Positions 2,171-22,016 of a stretch of 64,000 nucleotides of DNA are shown here, in pieces. The stretch is from an uncultured bacterium. Lineage in GTDB: Bacteria; Patescibacteriota; Saccharimonadia; Saccharimonadales; Saccharimonadaceae. Below the pieces are notes generated by a model that did no database searches, had not been told where the DNA came from, and saw only the letters and a program-made list of their open reading frames with translations. The position numbers were made by a program, and so were the translations under genes. How positions within the stretch are numbered: the first letter of the stretch is position 1; every line of letters starts with the position of its first letter. The stretch is from the NCBI GenBank assembly GCA_937863415.1, contig CALMFC010000005.1:1-64000 (forward strand), written 5' to 3'.

Positions 2171-2320
2171 TTATTTGGGGCGAATGATGGGGCTTGGTCA
2201 CGTTCCGCGACCCCGACACATCACGATAACGAGCATAGCTCGTTTCGGATGATGTCCTTGCGACCCGCCACCGGCGGGTCTCACCCACTACCTTAGGAGT
2301 GGATTCAAGCCCCATCCCAA

Positions 2321-2350: not shown

Positions 2351-2428
2351 TGGGGCGAATGATGGGGCTTGAACCCACTGCCTCCGGGACCACAACCCGG
2401 CGCTCTAACCAGATGAGCTACATCCGCC
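2351..2428 (-). tRNA. tRNA-His (GTG)
   Basis: Full cloverleaf. Acceptor GCGGATG pairs with CATTCGC. An extra G at -1 faces C73, the histidine identity element. The anticodon loop TTGTGGT holds GTG, the T-arm is GTGGG-TTCAAGC-CCCAT, and CCA is encoded. Confidence 0.97.
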
Positions 2429-2472
2429 AAACCTGAGACATTATAGCATGCAACTGAGGTCAAGACAACGAA

Positions 2473-2889
2473 CTAATGGGAGTGTTCGCTCGCTTCAGCA
2501 TCGGCTTTGGTGGCATGAACCGTTCCATGTGGATGTTCTGGTGGTGCGTATATCGAATATAGCTTGAGTGCTTCGTTACCATCGTTCGTAAGATTGTGCC
2601 ACATACCAGCTGGAACAAATACGACATCGTCGTGCGCTGCGCTCCAACTTTTCAAATCGTCTTTACTTGGCCCCATCTGCACCAAAGCGTGCCCAGACTC
2701 AATCCGCAGGAATTGATCGTGATCTTCGTGAACCTCTAGTCCGATATCGTGTCCCGGCTGAATCGCCATTAAAGTTGCCTGCAAATATCTGCCAGTCCAC
2801 AGCGTCGTACGATAGTTATTATTAGCTAGTGTGTCGTGTTCAATGTTGGTCACAAATGGATTTGGACCTTGGTCAGTTATATCATTCAT
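2473..2889 (-). CDS. Cupin-domain protein
   Basis: A 138-residue single-domain cupin. Motif 1 is GHDIGLEVHEDHDQFLRIESG, with two metal-ligand histidines and the following acidic residue. Motif 2 is VPAGMWHNLTN, with the third histidine. The family binds a divalent metal and covers mannose-6-phosphate-isomerase-like enzymes, dioxygenases and small-molecule sensors; the sequence alone does not give the substrate. The C-terminus is a His/Glu/Ala-rich tail. It sits alone between tRNA-His and tRNA-Gly and is divergent from tRNA-Gly. An AAAGGTG lies 13 nt upstream of ATG 2889, a rather distant Shine-Dalgarno. Confidence 0.85.
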   Translation of the reverse strand: MNDITDQGPNPFVTNIEHDTLANNNYRTTLWTGRYLQATLMAIQPGHDIGLEVHEDHDQFLRIESGHALVQMGPSKDDLKSWSAAHDDVVFVPAGMWHNLTNDGNEALKLYSIYAPPEHPHGTVHATKADAEASEHSH

Positions 2890-2930
2890 ACTTTAATTGT
2901 AACACCTTTACTGATATAATTATCTGGCAT

Positions 2931-3005
2931 GCGGGCGTCGTATAATGGCTAATATGCCTGCCTTCCAAGCAAGCGATGAGAGTTCGATTCTCTCCGCCCG
3001 CACCA
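2931..3005 (+). tRNA. tRNA-Gly (TCC)
   Basis: Acceptor GCGGGCG/CGCCCGC, anticodon loop CTTCCAA with TCC, T-arm GAGAG-TTCGATT-CTCTC, encoded CCA. The anticodon stem contains one C·A mismatch (28-42). A TATAAT at 2915-2920 is a likely -10. The 3' end of this gene is copied several times downstream (6960-7662). Confidence 0.93.
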
Positions 3006-3017
3006 TTGTAGACTTAG

Positions 3018-3037
3018 AGACTCTTCGGAGTCTTTTT
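3018..3037 (+). terminator. Intrinsic terminator of tRNA-Gly
   Basis: AGACTC-TTCG-GAGTCT stem-loop followed by TTTT, 13 nt after the encoded CCA. Confidence 0.85.
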
Positions 3038-3096
3038 GTATCTGTTCAGGCTCGGTTCTAACCTTTTCTAGTGCTACTCGGAACTGTTTAGCGTTG

Positions 3097-3861
3097 TCAG
3101 CTATGGGTTGAAGCCACTCGATACGTGTTACTCGTCTTACTCTTATAGTGCCACAAAGTGTGTCGCTTTTCGTTGAGATATAGTTGGAGATTTCTGTTTC
3201 GAGTGATTATTATGCCTGCTTTATATTTAACACTACGGCTCGACTTGGCAATTTTTTGCTGCACTTTCTTATCCAAGACAGCAAACATCGCAAATGGTCG
3301 TGTATAAAACGTAATCATGTCTTTCGGAATTTCAACCAACTCATCACCCCTAAATGCCCCAGCAAGTGTCTTGTCGTAAGTAAAACCCTTGAGTTCTATC
3401 AACTCATCTAATGCAAGTTTGAAAAAATACTCCCAAAACATCGGGTGATAATTGAAACGAGTAGAATCACCGTAGAGGTCTCTCCATCTGATAGTGAAGT
3501 TATACCCGTAATCATTCTTATACTGTTTGGTGACTGCATTCCAGAACTTATCCATATCTTCGACTGGTACTGCGATACTGTCTATGTAGCTGGACAATTC
3601 ATCTCTGAATCGCTGATGATCCACATTGTTGATTACATACTTTATTGATTTCCCGTCTTTTAGCGTGTTTACGCTGAAGTAGCCAGCTTGTTGGTATTCG
3701 TGTAACGCTGTCTCAAATTTTGCCGAGTCATCGTATGGGAAATAGTGGGACATAGCCTTCTGTGTAAGAGCTTCATCTTCCAGGTCTTGGGGAGCAAATA
3801 ATAATCTACCAAATAGGTAAAGCTTCTCTTCTGGCCAACGATACTGTATATCCATCTTCAT
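3097..3861 (-). CDS. Hypothetical protein, island gene
   Basis: 254 residues, soluble, charged and aromatic-rich (for example FWEYFFKLALDELIEL, MITFYTRPFAMFAVLD). No signal peptide, membrane helix or motif that I recognise. The C-terminal third is basic. It is the first gene beyond tRNA-Gly, transcribed toward the tRNA, and lies inside the stretch bounded by copies of the tRNA-Gly 3' end, so it is probably accessory cargo. The start could be ATG 3861 or the ATG two codons later; the Shine-Dalgarno is weak (GAG). Its function is unknown. Confidence 0.6.
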   Translation of the reverse strand: MKMDIQYRWPEEKLYLFGRLLFAPQDLEDEALTQKAMSHYFPYDDSAKFETALHEYQQAGYFSVNTLKDGKSIKYVINNVDHQRFRDELSSYIDSIAVPVEDMDKFWNAVTKQYKNDYGYNFTIRWRDLYGDSTRFNYHPMFWEYFFKLALDELIELKGFTYDKTLAGAFRGDELVEIPKDMITFYTRPFAMFAVLDKKVQQKIAKSSRSVKYKAGIIITRNRNLQLYLNEKRHTLWHYKSKTSNTYRVASTHS

Positions 3862-3919
3862 CTCTGCATATTTTCTAACAAACCCACTGATATCGCAAAC
3901 TCAAACGGTTTAGTTATGG

Positions 3920-4068
3920 TATAATCATCTTGTCTAAATATCAAAACAAATCGGAACGCATTTTTGCGGTTCGCCATTGAAAATGGCACCGCGTAAGCAT
4001 CTTGGCGAAAGCCGATTTGTGAATGGTAGTTAGACACCTCGCGGTGTCATTTCTAATTTACGGAGTTT
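3920..4068 (+). promoter_or_regulatory. Promoter and structured 5' leader
   Basis: TATAAT at 3920-3925 starts a leader that folds well by eye. A closing stem pairs AAATCGG (3948-3954) with CCGATTT (4012-4018). Inside it lie a hairpin AACGCA/TGCGGTT, a perfect GCCATT-GAA-AATGGC hairpin and a GGC-GAAA-GCC hairpin. A separate hairpin GACACC-TCGC-GGTGTC follows. It precedes a short leader ORF and a membrane-protein gene. It matches no riboswitch class I can name; a cis-regulatory RNA or an island-borne ncRNA are both possible. Confidence 0.5.
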
Positions 4069-4071
4069 TTT

Positions 4072-4107
4072 ATGGCAATAATCACAGATTTGCAAAGTAA
4101 GGAATAA
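4072..4107 (+). CDS. Possible 11-aa leader peptide
   Basis: ATG followed by MAIITDLQSKE and TAA. A CGGAG lies 7 nt upstream. It sits between the folded leader and the Shine-Dalgarno of the 4129 gene, the usual place for a translated leader, but there is no run of a single amino acid that would point to attenuation. Confidence 0.3.
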   Translation: MAIITDLQSKE

Positions 4108-4128
4108 TCATAGGTAAGGAGAACGGTC

Positions 4129-4587
4129 ATGGCTGATCAAAATAACAACGATACGCATCACAAGAAAACCAGACCCCTAGACGATTCACAACACAGCGGC
4201 TGGGGAAGTATGGTTGGGCTGATTGTATTTGGCATATTATGGTGTGGTCTTGTATGGCTATTCTTAAACTGGCTTGGTCATTGGATGCTTGATAGCAATG
4301 TCGCATTATTTAGAGGGCTTGGCGTATTAGTCATGTTTGGTAGTATCTTTATAACCTACCTCATTTTTTACCAAGGTAGCATGATGGAGCCAAGAAAAGA
4401 GCTGGCTCGCCAACGAGCGAACGGTCAGGTGCCTTTACTATCCACGTTGCAGTCTACACTGGTATTCATACTATATATATTGTGGGTTCCAGCCATAATC
4501 TTCGCTATAGTTACTGGTGTAAACGCATACACATACATTCACAGCGATAACACAGACTCCAGCTATGTTTCGCCTGAGTCTCGATAA
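4129..4587 (+). CDS. Three-helix membrane protein, unknown
   Basis: 152 residues. A polar His/Asn-rich N-terminus of about 27 residues is followed by hydrophobic segments at roughly 28-48, 60-82 and 108-130 and a short polar tail. Strong Shine-Dalgarno (TAAGGAG, 8 nt before ATG 4129). No family is recognised. It is followed 20 bp later by a secreted G5-like protein on the same strand, so the two are probably co-transcribed and act at the cell envelope. Confidence 0.65.
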   Translation: MADQNNNDTHHKKTRPLDDSQHSGWGSMVGLIVFGILWCGLVWLFLNWLGHWMLDSNVALFRGLGVLVMFGSIFITYLIFYQGSMMEPRKELARQRANGQVPLLSTLQSTLVFILYILWVPAIIFAIVTGVNAYTYIHSDNTDSSYVSPESR

Positions 4588-4607
4588 TATGTAACGGTTC
4601 TGAAATT

Positions 4608-5306
4608 ATGAGTAAAGAAAAGCCAATTAGAAAAAAGGCACTCACACATAGCAAGCTACGTAGCATTATTAAGTATAAATACGCACCACGAAAGATCGTA
4701 CTTGTTATAATTGTAATTGTATTTTGTTTGAGCGCTGTAGTGTTAGCCATACACGCTATCTACAAACCTATCAATCAAGTTTCAACAGAAAAGTCTACCG
4801 CCGGCACAGATATTATTCCTGTTGTCACATCTCCACAACAAGACATACATGTACAGCAACCATCAACCGAGTCATCTACGCCTACATCTACCAGCTCCAA
4901 CTCCACTACTCCGCCTACTGGGGAAGACTGTAAGACAGTTGTCACACCGCACCCAACAGTCTACGAAGATACTAACTCAATGCCGTCTGGTAAAACATCA
5001 GTTAAGATGACTGGATCCGATGGGATGTACATAACCTGTAAGAGTGGCGGCTCGTACTTAGTGTCTCAACCAACCACTGAAGTGCTCTGGCGTGGTACAG
5101 GTCCAACCGCCGAGGAGGAGGCTCAGCAGAATCAACAGGCATACGATCTGGCATACAGTACGTGTCGAAGTAAATATAACACTGCCTACGCCCAAGCTTA
5201 TCAGCAACTGACATCGCAGGGCGTTCAAGGTTCGCAAGCAACGAGCGGAGCTACCACTGCTGGCAACCAAGCTTACAATAGTTGCATGAGTAGCTATGGC
5301 TATTAA
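4608..5306 (+). CDS. Membrane-anchored surface protein with G5-like domain
   Basis: 232 residues. A basic N-terminus and one hydrophobic segment (about residues 28-49) form a type II anchor. A Ser/Thr/Pro linker (about 55-105) follows, then a domain at about 106-166 whose pattern HPTVYED...MPSGKTSVKMTGSDG...TTEVLWRGTG resembles the G5 domain seen in wall-associated proteins. The C-terminal 65 residues are Gln/Ala/Tyr-rich with two cysteines. G5 domains are linked to peptidoglycan or glycan binding; here that is inference from pattern alone. Same strand as the membrane protein 20 bp upstream. Confidence 0.65.
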   Translation: MSKEKPIRKKALTHSKLRSIIKYKYAPRKIVLVIIVIVFCLSAVVLAIHAIYKPINQVSTEKSTAGTDIIPVVTSPQQDIHVQQPSTESSTPTSTSSNSTTPPTGEDCKTVVTPHPTVYEDTNSMPSGKTSVKMTGSDGMYITCKSGGSYLVSQPTTEVLWRGTGPTAEEEAQQNQQAYDLAYSTCRSKYNTAYAQAYQQLTSQGVQGSQATSGATTAGNQAYNSCMSSYGY

Positions 5307-5356
5307 AATACAGGCAGAGGGAATGGTGTCTTACAACATCGTGTACACTTAAACTA

Positions 5357-5783
5357 ATGGACAAATACCCATATAAATATCTATCTCGATATAGATGGAG
5401 TCCTTCTTGCCAATGAGGACAATCTAGCTATTGGTGCGAGTGAGTTTATTAAGTATGCTGCCGACAACTTTAATGTCTATTGGCTTACCACCCACTGCAT
5501 GGATGGTGACCCCGACCACGCTATCAACTACGTTCAGCGGGCAACCGACGAGAACTTGCGTCCATACTTACAAAAATTCAAGCCAGTTAGCTGGAGCACT
5601 GCAAAGACGGAGGCGATAGATTTCTCAAAGCCTTTCCTGTGGTTCGATGATGACTGCTACAGCGACGAACGCCTGGCTTTGAATGAGCATAATGCCTTTC
5701 GCTCTTGGATTGAGGTAGACTTGGCTAAGTACCCCGACCAACTAACTTACGAACTAAAACTACTAGAAGCACTTGCCAAGTAG
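5357..5783 (+). pseudogene. HAD-like phosphatase, start disrupted by a one-base shift
   Basis: From 5373 one frame reads INIYLDIDGVLLANED, a clean HAD motif I (DxDG), then WLTTHCMDG and later FLWFDDDC, the acidic motif IV, ending at TAG 5781-5783. This resembles the small HAD domain of the SAK-type family. That frame has no ATG, GTG or TTG before 5499, past motif I. The only nearby ATG (5357) is one base out of frame: dropping one G of ATGG would give MTNTHINIYLDIDG. So it is either a genuine frameshift, an assembly indel, or translated from an unusual start. The product would be about 141 aa. Confidence 0.55.
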
Positions 5784-5800
5784 TCGGGTTTTCGACTTTT
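5782..5800. terminator. Terminator between convergent genes
   Basis: AGTCG-GGTTTT-CGACT followed by TTTTTC, lying between the HAD-like gene and the convergent DUF3761 gene. Confidence 0.6.
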
Positions 5801-5819
5801 TCAAATGCATTCTTAGGTG

Positions 5820-6290
5820 TTACTCTAACACCTTCTCGTAGTAAGCTTCTTTAGCTGGCGAGTCTATGATGGTTTTTGTGCTGGTCTTTGGGACGCTACT
5901 ATATCGAGGAGCGTTCCATTGAGCTACACCACCATGATGCGAACACGCACCCCGACCGGTAGCACACGAGGGTGAATAAGTGCCATCATTACATAGCGTG
6001 CAGTATCCAACTACTTCTTTTTCGTAGGTTGTCACAGTCTCGGTGTGGCTTTTTTCTGGGACGGTGGGGTGATAGATATATGTAGAATAGCTAATGCCGT
6101 CAACGGTACAGTCAGACGTAACTGTTGTGCCGTCACAGACGGGCTTTTTCTTTGGTACTGGCTGTGTAATATTGCTAGAGTTAGTAGCTTTATTTGTAAC
6201 CGAGCTTGAGGTCTCTGGGTTAGATTGTGAAGAAAATGCCACAATCAAAAGAGCTACTATTGAAATAATAACAACCACAGCTCGTTTCAT
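5820..6290 (-). CDS. Secreted DUF3761-like protein
   Basis: 156 residues. It begins MKRAVVVIISIVALLIVAF, a signal peptide or membrane anchor. A Ser/Thr/Asn-rich linker follows, then a cysteine-containing region with CDGTTVTSDC. The segment CTLCNDGTYSPSCATGRGACSHHGGVAQW (about residues 97-125) matches the DUF3761 pattern (DGTYS...G.CSHHGGV). It is probably exported and disulfide-stabilised. It is transcribed convergently with the HAD-like gene and is part of the island of small envelope proteins after tRNA-Gly. The molecular role of DUF3761 is not known. Confidence 0.7.
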   Translation of the reverse strand: MKRAVVVIISIVALLIVAFSSQSNPETSSSVTNKATNSSNITQPVPKKKPVCDGTTVTSDCTVDGISYSTYIYHPTVPEKSHTETVTTYEKEVVGYCTLCNDGTYSPSCATGRGACSHHGGVAQWNAPRYSSVPKTSTKTIIDSPAKEAYYEKVLE

Positions 6291-6322
6291 AAGATACTTA
6301 TAACATATTTATAGGATAAATG

Positions 6323-6661
6323 CTAGCAGTTCTCTTCTATATAAGCTGTTACGCCTTCATTGAATGAGTCCGAGTAACTATCCCAGTATTCGTCACCAGA
6401 GCTGTATTCATAACAGACATCGTTATCATAGCCCCATTCATATCCTGCTTCGTGACCAGAGCAATCGTCGCTACATTCGTAGCCGTAAAATTCTTCAGGC
6501 TCTTCGTAATAACTATCGTCCTCTACAGAAGATTCGTAGCTGTTGTTGTATTCATTTGTTGAAGAGTTGCTTGACCCACTCGAAGATAAGAATAGCCATC
6601 CAAAGAATATGATTATGCCAATAACCGCTAATGTACCACCATGCTCTTCTAGCCAATCCAT
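6323..6661 (-). CDS. Membrane-anchored acidic Tyr/Ser/Cys-rich protein
   Basis: 112 residues. One hydrophobic helix at about 11-27, then an acidic, tyrosine- and serine-rich exposed region. The C-terminal half (YECSDDCSGHEAGYEWGYDN) has the C-x3-C-SGHEAGYEW pattern found in small bacterial envelope proteins; I know no named function. It lies 33 bp upstream of the DUF3761 gene on the same strand, so the two probably form a transcript. Four cysteines suggest an exported fold. Confidence 0.6.
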   Translation of the reverse strand: MDWLEEHGGTLAVIGIIIFFGWLFLSSSGSSNSSTNEYNNSYESSVEDDSYYEEPEEFYGYECSDDCSGHEAGYEWGYDNDVCYEYSSGDEYWDSYSDSFNEGVTAYIEENC

Positions 6662-6960
6662 ACTGGCTTTAATATACCAGAAAATCGTTGAACCTCTTTA
6701 TAGGACATTGTGTCAATCGCAGGCTAGGGCATATCTTATGCATATACAACCAAGTTCTGTTCTTCTTTGAGGTATCGACAATCTGTTTTTATAGATTATT
6801 GGGGGCATGGTCATAATGGGGTTAAAAGGGTCTCGAAACTACCGCCCCCCTGGGAACTATGTAGGATCAGCCCCTAGGTAGGGTTATAGCAGGGTATCGG
6901 TGGGCTTGATATTACCCCTGTTACGTAGTAGAATAATCCAGAAGTGCGGTTCTTACTTCG
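6662..6960. other. Intergenic stretch with one long hairpin
   Basis: No convincing gene. A possible structured segment pairs GGGGGC at 6801-6806 with GCCCCC near 6844-6850 and GGT with ACC inside it. GC-rich lines follow to 6900. It does not fold as a tRNA and matches no RNA family that I know. Confidence 0.3.
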
Positions 6961-7154
6961 TTGAGAATCCCGCACCAATAAAAATACCGTACCCTGTGTA
7001 CGATATTTTTATTGGTAGGAGCTGTGAATCTAACTCTCATCGTAAATTCGCTCCAGCGAATTGGATGAGAAGTTCGATAACAAGGAGCAGGACAGAAATG
7101 TTTACTTTTCTGAACGCGACGCAGTTATACAAAGTATTCTCTCCGCCCGCACCA
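6940..7154 (+). repeat. tRNA-Gly trailer module, copy 1
   Basis: A degenerate tRNA-Gly 3' end (CCCGCACCA ending 6977) runs into a terminator-like hairpin (to 7015), then an antisense T-arm (GAATCTAACTCTCATCG, 7026-7042), a hairpin ATTCGCT/AGCGAAT, a T-arm strand GATGAGAAGTTCGAT, a ~56-nt insert, and a clean copy of the tRNA-Gly 3' end ATTCTCTCCGCCCGCACCA (7136-7154). Bases 6974-7079 recur at 7531-7636 with one mismatch. Confidence 0.8.
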
Positions 7155-7165
7155 GATATTATAAG

Positions 7166-7192
7166 AGACGTCAGAACTTCTGACGTCTTTTG
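7166..7192 (+). terminator. Terminator after tRNA-Gly 3' copy 1
   Basis: Stem AGACGTCAGAA / TTCTGACGTCT followed by TTTT. It differs in sequence from the terminator of the intact tRNA-Gly gene. Confidence 0.8.
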
Positions 7193-7193
7193 T

Positions 7194-7222
7194 TTGATTA
7201 TTATTGAAGTTGATTCTATAAT
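7194..7222 (+). promoter_or_regulatory. Sigma70-type promoter
   Basis: TTGATT (7194-7199), 17-nt spacer, TATAAT (7217-7222), upstream of the 85-aa gene at 7244. Confidence 0.75.
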
Positions 7223-7243
7223 CAATTCGAACAAGGAGTGTGT

Positions 7244-7501
7244 ATGCCAAGAACCATAGAAATTAGCTATCTAGAGGACAACACTATCGAGCGTAAACTT
7301 GCTGAAAGCACCGCTAAGCGTATCGCTGAGTTGGGAGGTCTGAGCATTATTACTGCACTTTATTTTGATGAATATGGAGCTGACGGGCTTACTCCTAGGA
7401 TTGAATTTCCTGACGGTACTGTCGTTGATGGAGTGCCCGGCGTACGGAAAGCGCTTGAGGAAGACTTACTTCCTGATTACGTAGCCTCAACCAATAGTTA
7501 G
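7244..7501 (+). CDS. Small hypothetical protein, module cargo
   Basis: 85 residues, soluble, acidic. It reads MPRTIEISYLEDN... and ends in a region with PRIEFPDGTVVDGVPGV. No family is recognised. AAGGAG lies 5 nt before ATG 7244 and a good promoter is 22 nt upstream of that, so expression is well supported. It is the only gene between two successive copies of the tRNA-Gly 3' end, which makes it look like the cargo of one repeat module. Confidence 0.6.
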   Translation: MPRTIEISYLEDNTIERKLAESTAKRIAELGGLSIITALYFDEYGADGLTPRIEFPDGTVVDGVPGVRKALEEDLLPDYVASTNS

Positions 7502-7524
7502 CGCAGTTCTGACTTCATCTAAAA

Positions 7525-7662
7525 CGCTACACCAATAAAAATACCGTACCCTGTGTACGATATTTTTATTGGTAGGAGCTGTGAATCTAACTCTCATCGT
7601 AAATTCGCTCCAGCGAATTGGATGAGTAGTTCGATATCCCTCATTCTTCTCTCCGCCCGCAC
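7525..7662 (+). repeat. tRNA-Gly trailer module, copy 2
   Basis: Bases 7531-7636 repeat 6974-7079 with a single mismatch: terminator-like hairpin, antisense T-arm, hairpin, T-arm strand. Only a few bases of insert follow before a slightly degenerate 3' end ATTCTTCTCTCCGCCCGCAC (7643-7662). A TCCCGGGA dyad and T run at 7676-7693 may be its terminator. Confidence 0.75.
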
Positions 7663-10953: not shown

Positions 10954-11194
10954 TGCCGAGTTGGGTCGAAATGGCGACTTTTTGCTACGCAAAAAATGTC
11001 GTTGGTGAGAACTGCCACTACGGCAGTTCGCAAGGCCGGAAGCCGGATGACGAACGTCACCGACTGAGGCGGGGTCGAGAAAAATTAGGAACTAATTTTA
11101 TCGTGACCGATCCCAACCCGGGGTACCAAAATAAAATAACTGACACACCCGTCAGTTATTTTGTTTTGACCCTGAGCTGGATCGAAACGACGAC
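10954..11194 (+). repeat. tRNA-Arg trailer module with type 1 insert
   Basis: Antisense T-arm GGGTCGAAATGGCGAC (10963-10978), a TTTTTGC/GCAAAAA hairpin, T-arm strand GTCGTTGGT (10998-11006), type 1 insert (11007-11107, GAGAACTGCC to CGTGAC), tRNA-Arg 3' end copy with CCA (11108-11128), a new terminator AAATAACTGAC/GTCAGTTATTTT (11129-11165), then a second antisense T-arm (GGATCGAAACGACGAC, 11179-11194) with a truncated continuation. The insert carries an extra AAAATTAG/CTAATTTT hairpin not seen in the other copies. Confidence 0.85.
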
Positions 11195-21539: not shown

Positions 21540-21660
21540 CGGGGTGTGGCGCAGTTGATAGTGAGAACTGCCAGTGGCAGTTCGCAAGGCGACGTTACAA
21601 ATGAACTGTGTTCATTTGACTAACTCGCGTTGGCCAGAGGAACGTGACCGCTCGGTTTGG
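21540..21660 (+). repeat. tRNA-Pro 5' fragment with type 1 insert
   Basis: CGGGGTGTGGCGCAGTTGATAG (21540-21561) copies the 5' end of tRNA-Pro up to the D-loop. A type 1 insert follows (21562-21648): an AACTGCC/GGCAGTT hairpin, TCGCAAGGC, an AATGAAC/GTTCATT hairpin, then GGAACGTGAC. tRNA-like sequence CGCTCGGTTTGG resumes after it. Unlike the other copies, the join is in the D-arm. Confidence 0.8.
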
Positions 21661-21840: not shown

Positions 21841-22016
21841 CCTCAACCTTCGACCTCAGAAGTCGAAGGTGAGAACTGCCAGTGGCAGTTCGCAAGGCGA
21901 TGTCACTGATGAACTATGTTCATCCAGCCTGACTCGCGGGGTCGCCGGAGGTGACTGAGTCCTTTCACCCCGACCAAATAAATAAGACCGTCCTTGGACA
22001 GTCTTTTTTATTTGGA
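21841..22016 (+). repeat. tRNA-Pro trailer module with type 1 insert
   Basis: Antisense T-arm AACCTTCGAC, loop, T-arm strand GTCGAAGGT (21862-21870), type 1 insert (21871-21955), tRNA-Pro 3' end with CCA (21956-21976), and a new terminator (21977-22014; GACCGTCC/GGACAGTC flanked by AAATAAA/TTTATTT). Confidence 0.85.

Follow-up and report, generated by a model that had tools for sequence, protein, structure and literature searches.

The tRNA-Gly(TCC) locus

The DNA analysed here (the window, G000:C5:1-64000) is a stretch of 64,000 nucleotides from the 847-kb genome of a Saccharibacterium (G000), and our subject is the accessory island that follows its intact tRNA-Gly(TCC) gene (2931..3005, + strand, called by ARAGORN and Rfam), the left attachment site. 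The island is made of a first cargo block (3006-6977), a gene-less module, a smaller second cargo block and a second gene-less module. A sequence-only reading of this DNA had described four repeated tRNA-Gly 3′ ends, and all four places are real: an exact 19-nt copy of the tRNA 3′ end lies at 7136-7154 and a second one at 7646-7664 matches at 16/19 positions, with an exact run of 16 nt at 7647-7662. The copies near 6977 (CCCGCACCA) and 7535 (..ACACCA) are weak by sequence alone, measuring 5-9 nt each; both sit within a 137-nt repeat (6943-7079 and 7500-7636, 91% identity).

The first cargo block opens with the wreck of a large serine recombinase, which that reading had not foreseen, just as it had not foreseen that the same anatomy is repeated at many tRNAs. 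The last 56 codons of the gene are left (2952..3119, - strand), overlapping the tRNA in antisense (71% over 56 aa, E 4e-22, by tblastn with the recombinase of another genome, G036). Next to it lies a 254-aa ORF (3097..3861, -), a shortened relative of a protein that measures 364 aa in the G036 element (28%, 1.8e-9; tblastn 23%, 1e-17), for which no Pfam, NCBIfam or PADLOC family was found. The block ends with the right end of a serine-integrase element (6897..6977, +), which terminates in one of the short tRNA 3′ copies.

An intact relative in another genus

In G036, a Saccharibacteria genome of another genus, the relative of the 254-aa protein also follows tRNA-Gly(TCC). It belongs to an element headed by a 565-aa recombinase ORF that terminates inside the tRNA and carries the Pfam domains Resolvase (1.9e-23), Recombinase (1.9e-6) and a zinc ribbon (5.9e-10). 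The left ends of the two elements share 91% DNA identity over the 142 nt at 2931-3072, and their right ends (L265 14916-14995 in G036, 6897-6977 in the window) share 81% over 81 nt (E 1e-14), which makes the tRNA copy near 6977 an element end by homology too. Resolvase and Recombinase domains (in G036), an integrase gene at the attachment-site end and two ends common to independent copies are thus all present. A short end of 8-9 nt, CCGCACCA, is common to the element ends in this comparison and suggests the tRNA 3′ end as the crossover site. The element measures 10.6 kb in G036, against a 4-kb deletion derivative in the window, which has lost the body of the recombinase, a 469-aa ORF and others, the 364-aa protein being reduced to 254 aa.

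Because the remnant at 2952-3119 is found together with an intact relative at the same tRNA and a matching right end, 3006-6977 is, on sequence comparison, an internally deleted element that had a large serine recombinase of its own. With that gene down to 56 codons, the element would not be mobile today by itself; a helper could still act on it. The 254-aa protein occurs in 2/392 genomes of the order, this one and G036, and conservation of the cargo at this spot across distant relatives, which would have spoken against an island, is not what we see. Neither this protein nor the serine recombinase has a match among viral contigs, and the nearest annotated phage and plasmid matches of the recombinase are just 23-30% identical.

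The remaining cargo of the first block comprises small ORFs, as had been read from the sequence, and the family names given to them fall below their cut-offs. A membrane-like ORF of 152 aa (4129..4587, +; DUF4064 under cut-off) is followed by one of 232 aa (4608..5306, +) with a weak G5 match (19.2 bits, Pfam cut-off 23), and a 156-aa ORF (5820..6290, -) reaches 25.9 of the 29 bits demanded for DUF3761. The last, of 112 aa (6323..6661, -), is rich in Tyr and Glu and has a membrane segment (ORF list, Pfam scan). NCBIfam and PADLOC gave no match reaching a cut-off for the cargo. The supposed broken HAD gene is a frame at 5391..5783 (+) whose head lacks a usual start and which is probably broken; its name came from a motif seen by eye and no HAD family matches it. 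The region of the proposed structured leader (3900-4130) has only a chance-level Rfam match (17.8 bits, cut-off 60). On the left side of the island, the order of tRNA-Gly and the adjacent cupin gene is swapped (window 2351-3005) with respect to two other genomes, G025 and G026 (L024, L021).

Gene-less modules and the second cargo block

Directly behind the first block lies gene-less module 1 (6977..7154, +, 178 bp), composed of a terminator hairpin (6974-7016), an inverted T-arm (7026-7042), a T-arm half (7064-7078), an insert of the family called type III below and the exact tRNA 3′ copy at 7136-7154. Its insert matches that of the tRNA-Glu(CTC) module at 83%, and the module is missing in G036. 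Past its right end, G036 runs straight into a hairpin that is found in the window only after 7154, and when 6860-6976 is joined to 7155-7260 the product shows 125/173 identity with continuous G036 DNA, its right-hand part alone beating all 500 shuffles. Since G036 has continuous flanks without the module, the 178-bp module is a separate and discrete insertion. A type IV insert considered to the left of 6976 was rejected, as it did not rise above shuffles (48 and 210 of 300).

The second cargo block (7155..7534, +) carries one ORF (7238-7501, 85-87 aa), and its right end is related to that of the first (0/300 shuffles as alike). Behind it, module 2 (7531..7662, +), recognized by repeat comparison, repeats the terminator hairpin (7531-7573), the inverted T-arm (7583-7599), the T-arm half (7621-7635) and the tRNA 3′ copy (7647-7662), with the large insert missing.

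Modules at other tRNAs of the genome

The same anatomy recurs at many tRNAs. We examined 40 tRNAs of G000, of which 39 entered the control, a 71-nt Ala call being dropped. Cognate 18-nt tail copies (at most 2 mismatches) lie within 1450 nt of 9/39 tRNAs, against 1/1234 non-cognate pairs, and inverted T-arm copies lie within 130 nt of 10/39, against 0/1078; the Gly(TCC) copies, being beyond the 1450-nt limit, are outside the 9 counted. The common order is tRNA, terminator hairpin, inverted T-arm, loop, T-arm 5′ half, insert and tRNA 3′ half. The inserts were sorted into families by eye, a covariance model being used for type I only: type I (His, Pro, Arg, Leu, Gln and others), type II (Ser, Met, Tyr, Asp), type III (Gly(TCC) and Glu(CTC), 83% over 75 nt), type IV (Trp and Glu(TTC)) and a 31-nt hairpin at Gly(GCC). 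The module differs in type or is missing at orthologous tRNAs of G000, G004, G025 and G026, which indicates that modules come and go. Rfam, run on the window and on the module loci, gave no family but tRNA at cut-off, and permissive runs gave sub-threshold matches only. At tRNA-Gln(TTG), a HIT-domain gene that resembles the 85-87-aa gene at Gly lies alone between two tail copies (L047 794-1270, -).

Type I inserts are about 86 nt long and occur in 24/28 genomes of the genus, with 0 to 21 matches of the covariance model (R1) in each; a scan of the phylum found them in 11/379 genomes, an undercount owing to strict filters. Four lie in the window: behind tRNA-His (2197..2284, -, 102.6 bits), as a variant behind tRNA-Arg(TCT) (11005..11107, +, 32.8 bits), within a D-arm copy before tRNA-Pro (21561..21648, +, 60.4 bits) and behind tRNA-Pro (21869..21955, +, 88.9 bits). 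The fold is well founded in 47 diverse copies, where 25/33 pairs vary on both sides, 96.9% of cells pair and the covariation score is 0.550, against 0.150 in shuffles.

By sequence pattern, 79 distinct type I inserts were collected among the fetched loci. Both flanks match the nearby tRNA in 51 of the 79, and exactly 2 nt of the tRNA copy are replaced in 49 of these 51; three antisense tRNA-Phe copies likewise lose 2 nt, which brings the total to 52/54 measurable cases. The remaining inserts match on one side or neither (20) or have no tRNA in the locus (5). Some are nested within another insert, and the insert ends (TG..AC) share no single common dinucleotide. Serine recombinases cut with a 2-bp stagger, and it may be guessed that this stagger is the cause of the 2-nt replacement. 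In one locus (L130, about 6597-6757) a type I insert splits the D-arm of a tRNA-Pro(GGG) that has no other, intact copy there.

Outside the phylum, several Burkholderiales have the last stem of type I similarly placed behind tRNA-Leu(CAG), together with a copy of the tRNA 3′ end (L098 6430-7260; further type I-like loci are L074, L089, L106, L109, L115 and L128), and in Herbaspirillum the tRNA-Leu(CAG) and the module stand twice in tandem. No tRNA is near the pattern matches in Rhodobacter, Tabrizicola and Variovorax, which were put down to chance. In phages, plasmids and viral contigs, type I matches were at chance level or missing.

Serine recombinases ending in tRNAs

An apparently intact recombinase is found in G000 itself, at tRNA-Gly(GCC) (G000 C14, L315). 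This 498-aa serine recombinase (Resolvase 4.4e-16, Recombinase 1.2e-12) terminates in the tRNA and heads an element with two CrcB proteins and other ORFs, whose far end, at 8.4 kb, is a perfect 21-nt copy of the tRNA tail. The next element, in tandem with it, holds a 107-aa remnant of a recombinase (77%) beside a metal-type P-ATPase and reaches to 13.3 kb (tail 18/21). Beside CrcB (fluoride channel) and the P-ATPase, the tandem elements also hold an MFS-like ORF as cargo. Both right ends consist of a terminator, inverted T-arm, T-arm half, 31-nt hairpin and tail; that each of the two elements closes with this skeleton connects the gene-less modules with serine-element ends.

Other full recombinases terminate in tRNA-Leu(TAG) (G206), tRNA-Arg(TCT) (G319) and tRNA-Pro(TGG) (L083), so that, with those at Gly(TCC) in G036 and Gly(GCC) in G000, there are 5 recombinase genes that run antisense into a tRNA. 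L117 (DCDR01000001.1) and G319 have identical recombinases; L118 holds a partial one close to tRNA-Gln(CTG), and that of L146 has no tRNA in its locus. Matches of 20-31 aa at many tRNAs are merely the antisense of the tRNA and were left uncounted. The genes at tRNA-Arg (G319) and tRNA-Leu (G206) are flanked by 99-100% identical inverted repeats of 135 and 174 bp (L317 2650-2784/4338-4472 and 4465-4638/5805-5977; L316 155-289/1836-1970), which copy the C-terminal coding region of the recombinase gene itself and could make that gene invertible.

Origin of the island and alternative explanations

We consider it quite probable that the locus holds stacked, decayed serine-integrase elements and gene-less mini-elements at the 3′ end of tRNA-Gly(TCC). 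A first element, its recombinase gene lying antisense to the tRNA and running into it, would have inserted at the tRNA end, supplying a new tRNA terminator on the left and leaving a short piece of the tRNA 3′ end repeated on the right; most of the recombinase and its neighbours would later have been lost by internal deletion. The smaller second block (7155-7534) carries a related right end and may have arrived in the same manner, and behind each block stands a gene-less module of terminator, inverted T-arm, half T-arm and tRNA 3′ half repeat. The modules at many Saccharibacteria tRNAs would accordingly be mini-elements, that is, element ends without genes, most likely moved in trans by serine recombinases. 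That the recombinase performed the integration, and where its crossover lies, we infer from this arrangement. Successive integration at one tRNA, already proposed by the sequence-only reading, is supported by what is directly observed: an integrase remnant remains at this tRNA, a genome of another genus keeps an intact related element there, the right ends match, the empty site of module 1 is seen, and the module skeleton stands at the ends of two tandem elements beside an intact recombinase in G000.

Several observations weigh against this reading. At the right ends of recombinase elements the skeleton was seen with the 31-nt insert only (the two G000 elements and a similar end in L294); the putative mini-elements have the skeleton seen at the ends of the two Gly(GCC) elements, but insert types I-IV differ from the 31-nt insert there, and their link to serine elements would hold by analogy. 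G036 has no module behind its own right end. Type I inserts occupy copies of the T-, D- and anticodon-arms and also places before tRNAs. Behind the Arg (G319) and Pro (L083) recombinases, the examined DNA of those loci shows no tail copy. Finally, the recombinase loci were chosen via tRNA-linked motifs, so that their count is uninformative on frequency; that the genes end inside tRNAs is independent of how the loci were chosen.

Among the alternatives, it is conceivable, if doubtful, that the folded inserts are independent small hairpin transposons that target tRNA copies, in the manner of Rickettsia palindromic or REP-like elements, and are unrelated to serine elements. Their exact 2-nt replacement (52/54), on either tRNA strand, their self-nesting, their strong covariation and their patchy distribution of 0-21 copies per genome would all fit such transposons, yet the identical skeleton stands at serine-element ends and the expected movers are missing: Y1_Tnp/RAYT is absent from the repeat-rich G000, G094 and G403, reverse transcriptase (RVT_1) from G000 (it is present in 11/28 genomes of the genus) and IS110 from all 14 genomes searched. 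RAYT (Y1_Tnp) genes do lie near tRNAs in 10/20 fetched loci (L293-L312; binomial 4e-4, for a chance of 0.159 per locus taken from the tRNA positions of G000); they look like passengers, because most of the matches listed have their own short palindromes alongside. A tRNA island of the usual kind, built by a tyrosine integrase whose gene was lost and in which the serine recombinase is a passenger, is quite improbable. The tail copies do resemble usual tRNA att repeats and integrase loss is common among genomes, but no tyrosine integrase adjoins tRNA-Gly(TCC), as such an island would have it, and the gene that runs into the tRNA is a serine recombinase in five genomes or loci. The sole tyrosine recombinase of G000 (Phage_integrase, PF00589) is Xer-like, 307 aa long and far from the locus (C5:304119), and exactly one such match was found in 17/20 genomes searched, including all module-rich ones looked at.

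To the idea that selection keeps the modules as functional RNAs or decoys (pseudo-tRNA parts) we likewise give little credence. The RNA-like fold, the G-U pairs favoured on the tRNA strand and the related core behind tRNA-Leu(CAG) in several Burkholderiales would agree with it, whereas the variation of modules at the same tRNA among species of the genus, the lack of a type I match in 4/28 of its genomes and the lack of an Rfam family would not. Replication template switching at tRNA terminators could have made the tandem and inverted copies, trapping cargo by chance, and indeed the skeleton can be described as two reflections (tRNA 3′ half, inverted T-arm, direct half), while at tRNA-His of G025 an inverted tRNA 3′ part follows the terminator with no insert. 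We hold this very improbable, the least favoured of the four, as it leaves unexplained the recombinases running into tRNAs, the conserved inserts and the matching right ends across two genera.

In our judgement, the locus is a real, decayed and stacked tRNA island, ordinary in principle and unusual in its serine integrase and in the folded, tRNA-copying modules spread over the genome. Perhaps, and we put this forward tentatively, Saccharibacteria host a large undescribed serine-recombinase system specialised on tRNAs, whose attachment arms, one inverted and one direct, would copy the target tRNA and bear a folded insert in exchange for exactly 2 nt, and whose gene-less mini-elements, built from such arms, would occupy a large share of the tRNA genes in a genome. 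A search of full-text literature turned up no publication describing tRNA modules or serine elements of this kind in Saccharibacteria, but as it covered few subscription papers their novelty is not proved; passages of PMC13059738 deal with phages.

Significance

These results point to one route by which host-attached bacteria with tiny genomes gain and lose accessory genes, at tRNA ends and with serine rather than tyrosine integrases. The apparently intact Gly(GCC) recombinase of this genome, whose element carries CrcB and is followed by one with a metal-type pump, makes integration directly testable. If the mini-elements are substrates, they would constitute a natural collection of attachment sites that fit different tRNAs, and could serve to deliver genes into these bacteria, whose manipulation is difficult.

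Comparison with known systems

Serine integrases mostly target protein genes. The elements described here resemble large serine recombinase elements and phages of the phiC31, Bxb1 and TP901-1 type in having a Resolvase, Recombinase and zinc-ribbon protein at one end and a site-specific insertion; they differ in that the target is a tRNA 3′ end and the C-terminus of the recombinase is encoded antisense in the tRNA. With the tRNA genomic islands and tycheposons of tyrosine recombinases they share a tRNA restored on one side, a 3′ copy on the other, stacking and accessory cargo, although the recombinase here is of the serine type and the modules add an inverted T-arm and a folded insert.

The one-gene blocks between repeats (the 85-87-aa ORF at Gly, the HIT-domain ORF at Gln) and the folded end sites recall integron cassettes with their attC sites, but the repeats copy a tRNA, and a search of G000 with PF00589 returned the Xer-like protein only and no IntI-type integron integrase. 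Lastly, Rickettsia palindromic elements and the REP elements of REP/RAYT systems are likewise short non-coding sequences that fold and occur in numerous copies in small genomes; those of Saccharibacteria are set apart by their tie to tRNA copies, by their exact 2-nt replacement and by the lack of RAYT in the genomes richest in them.

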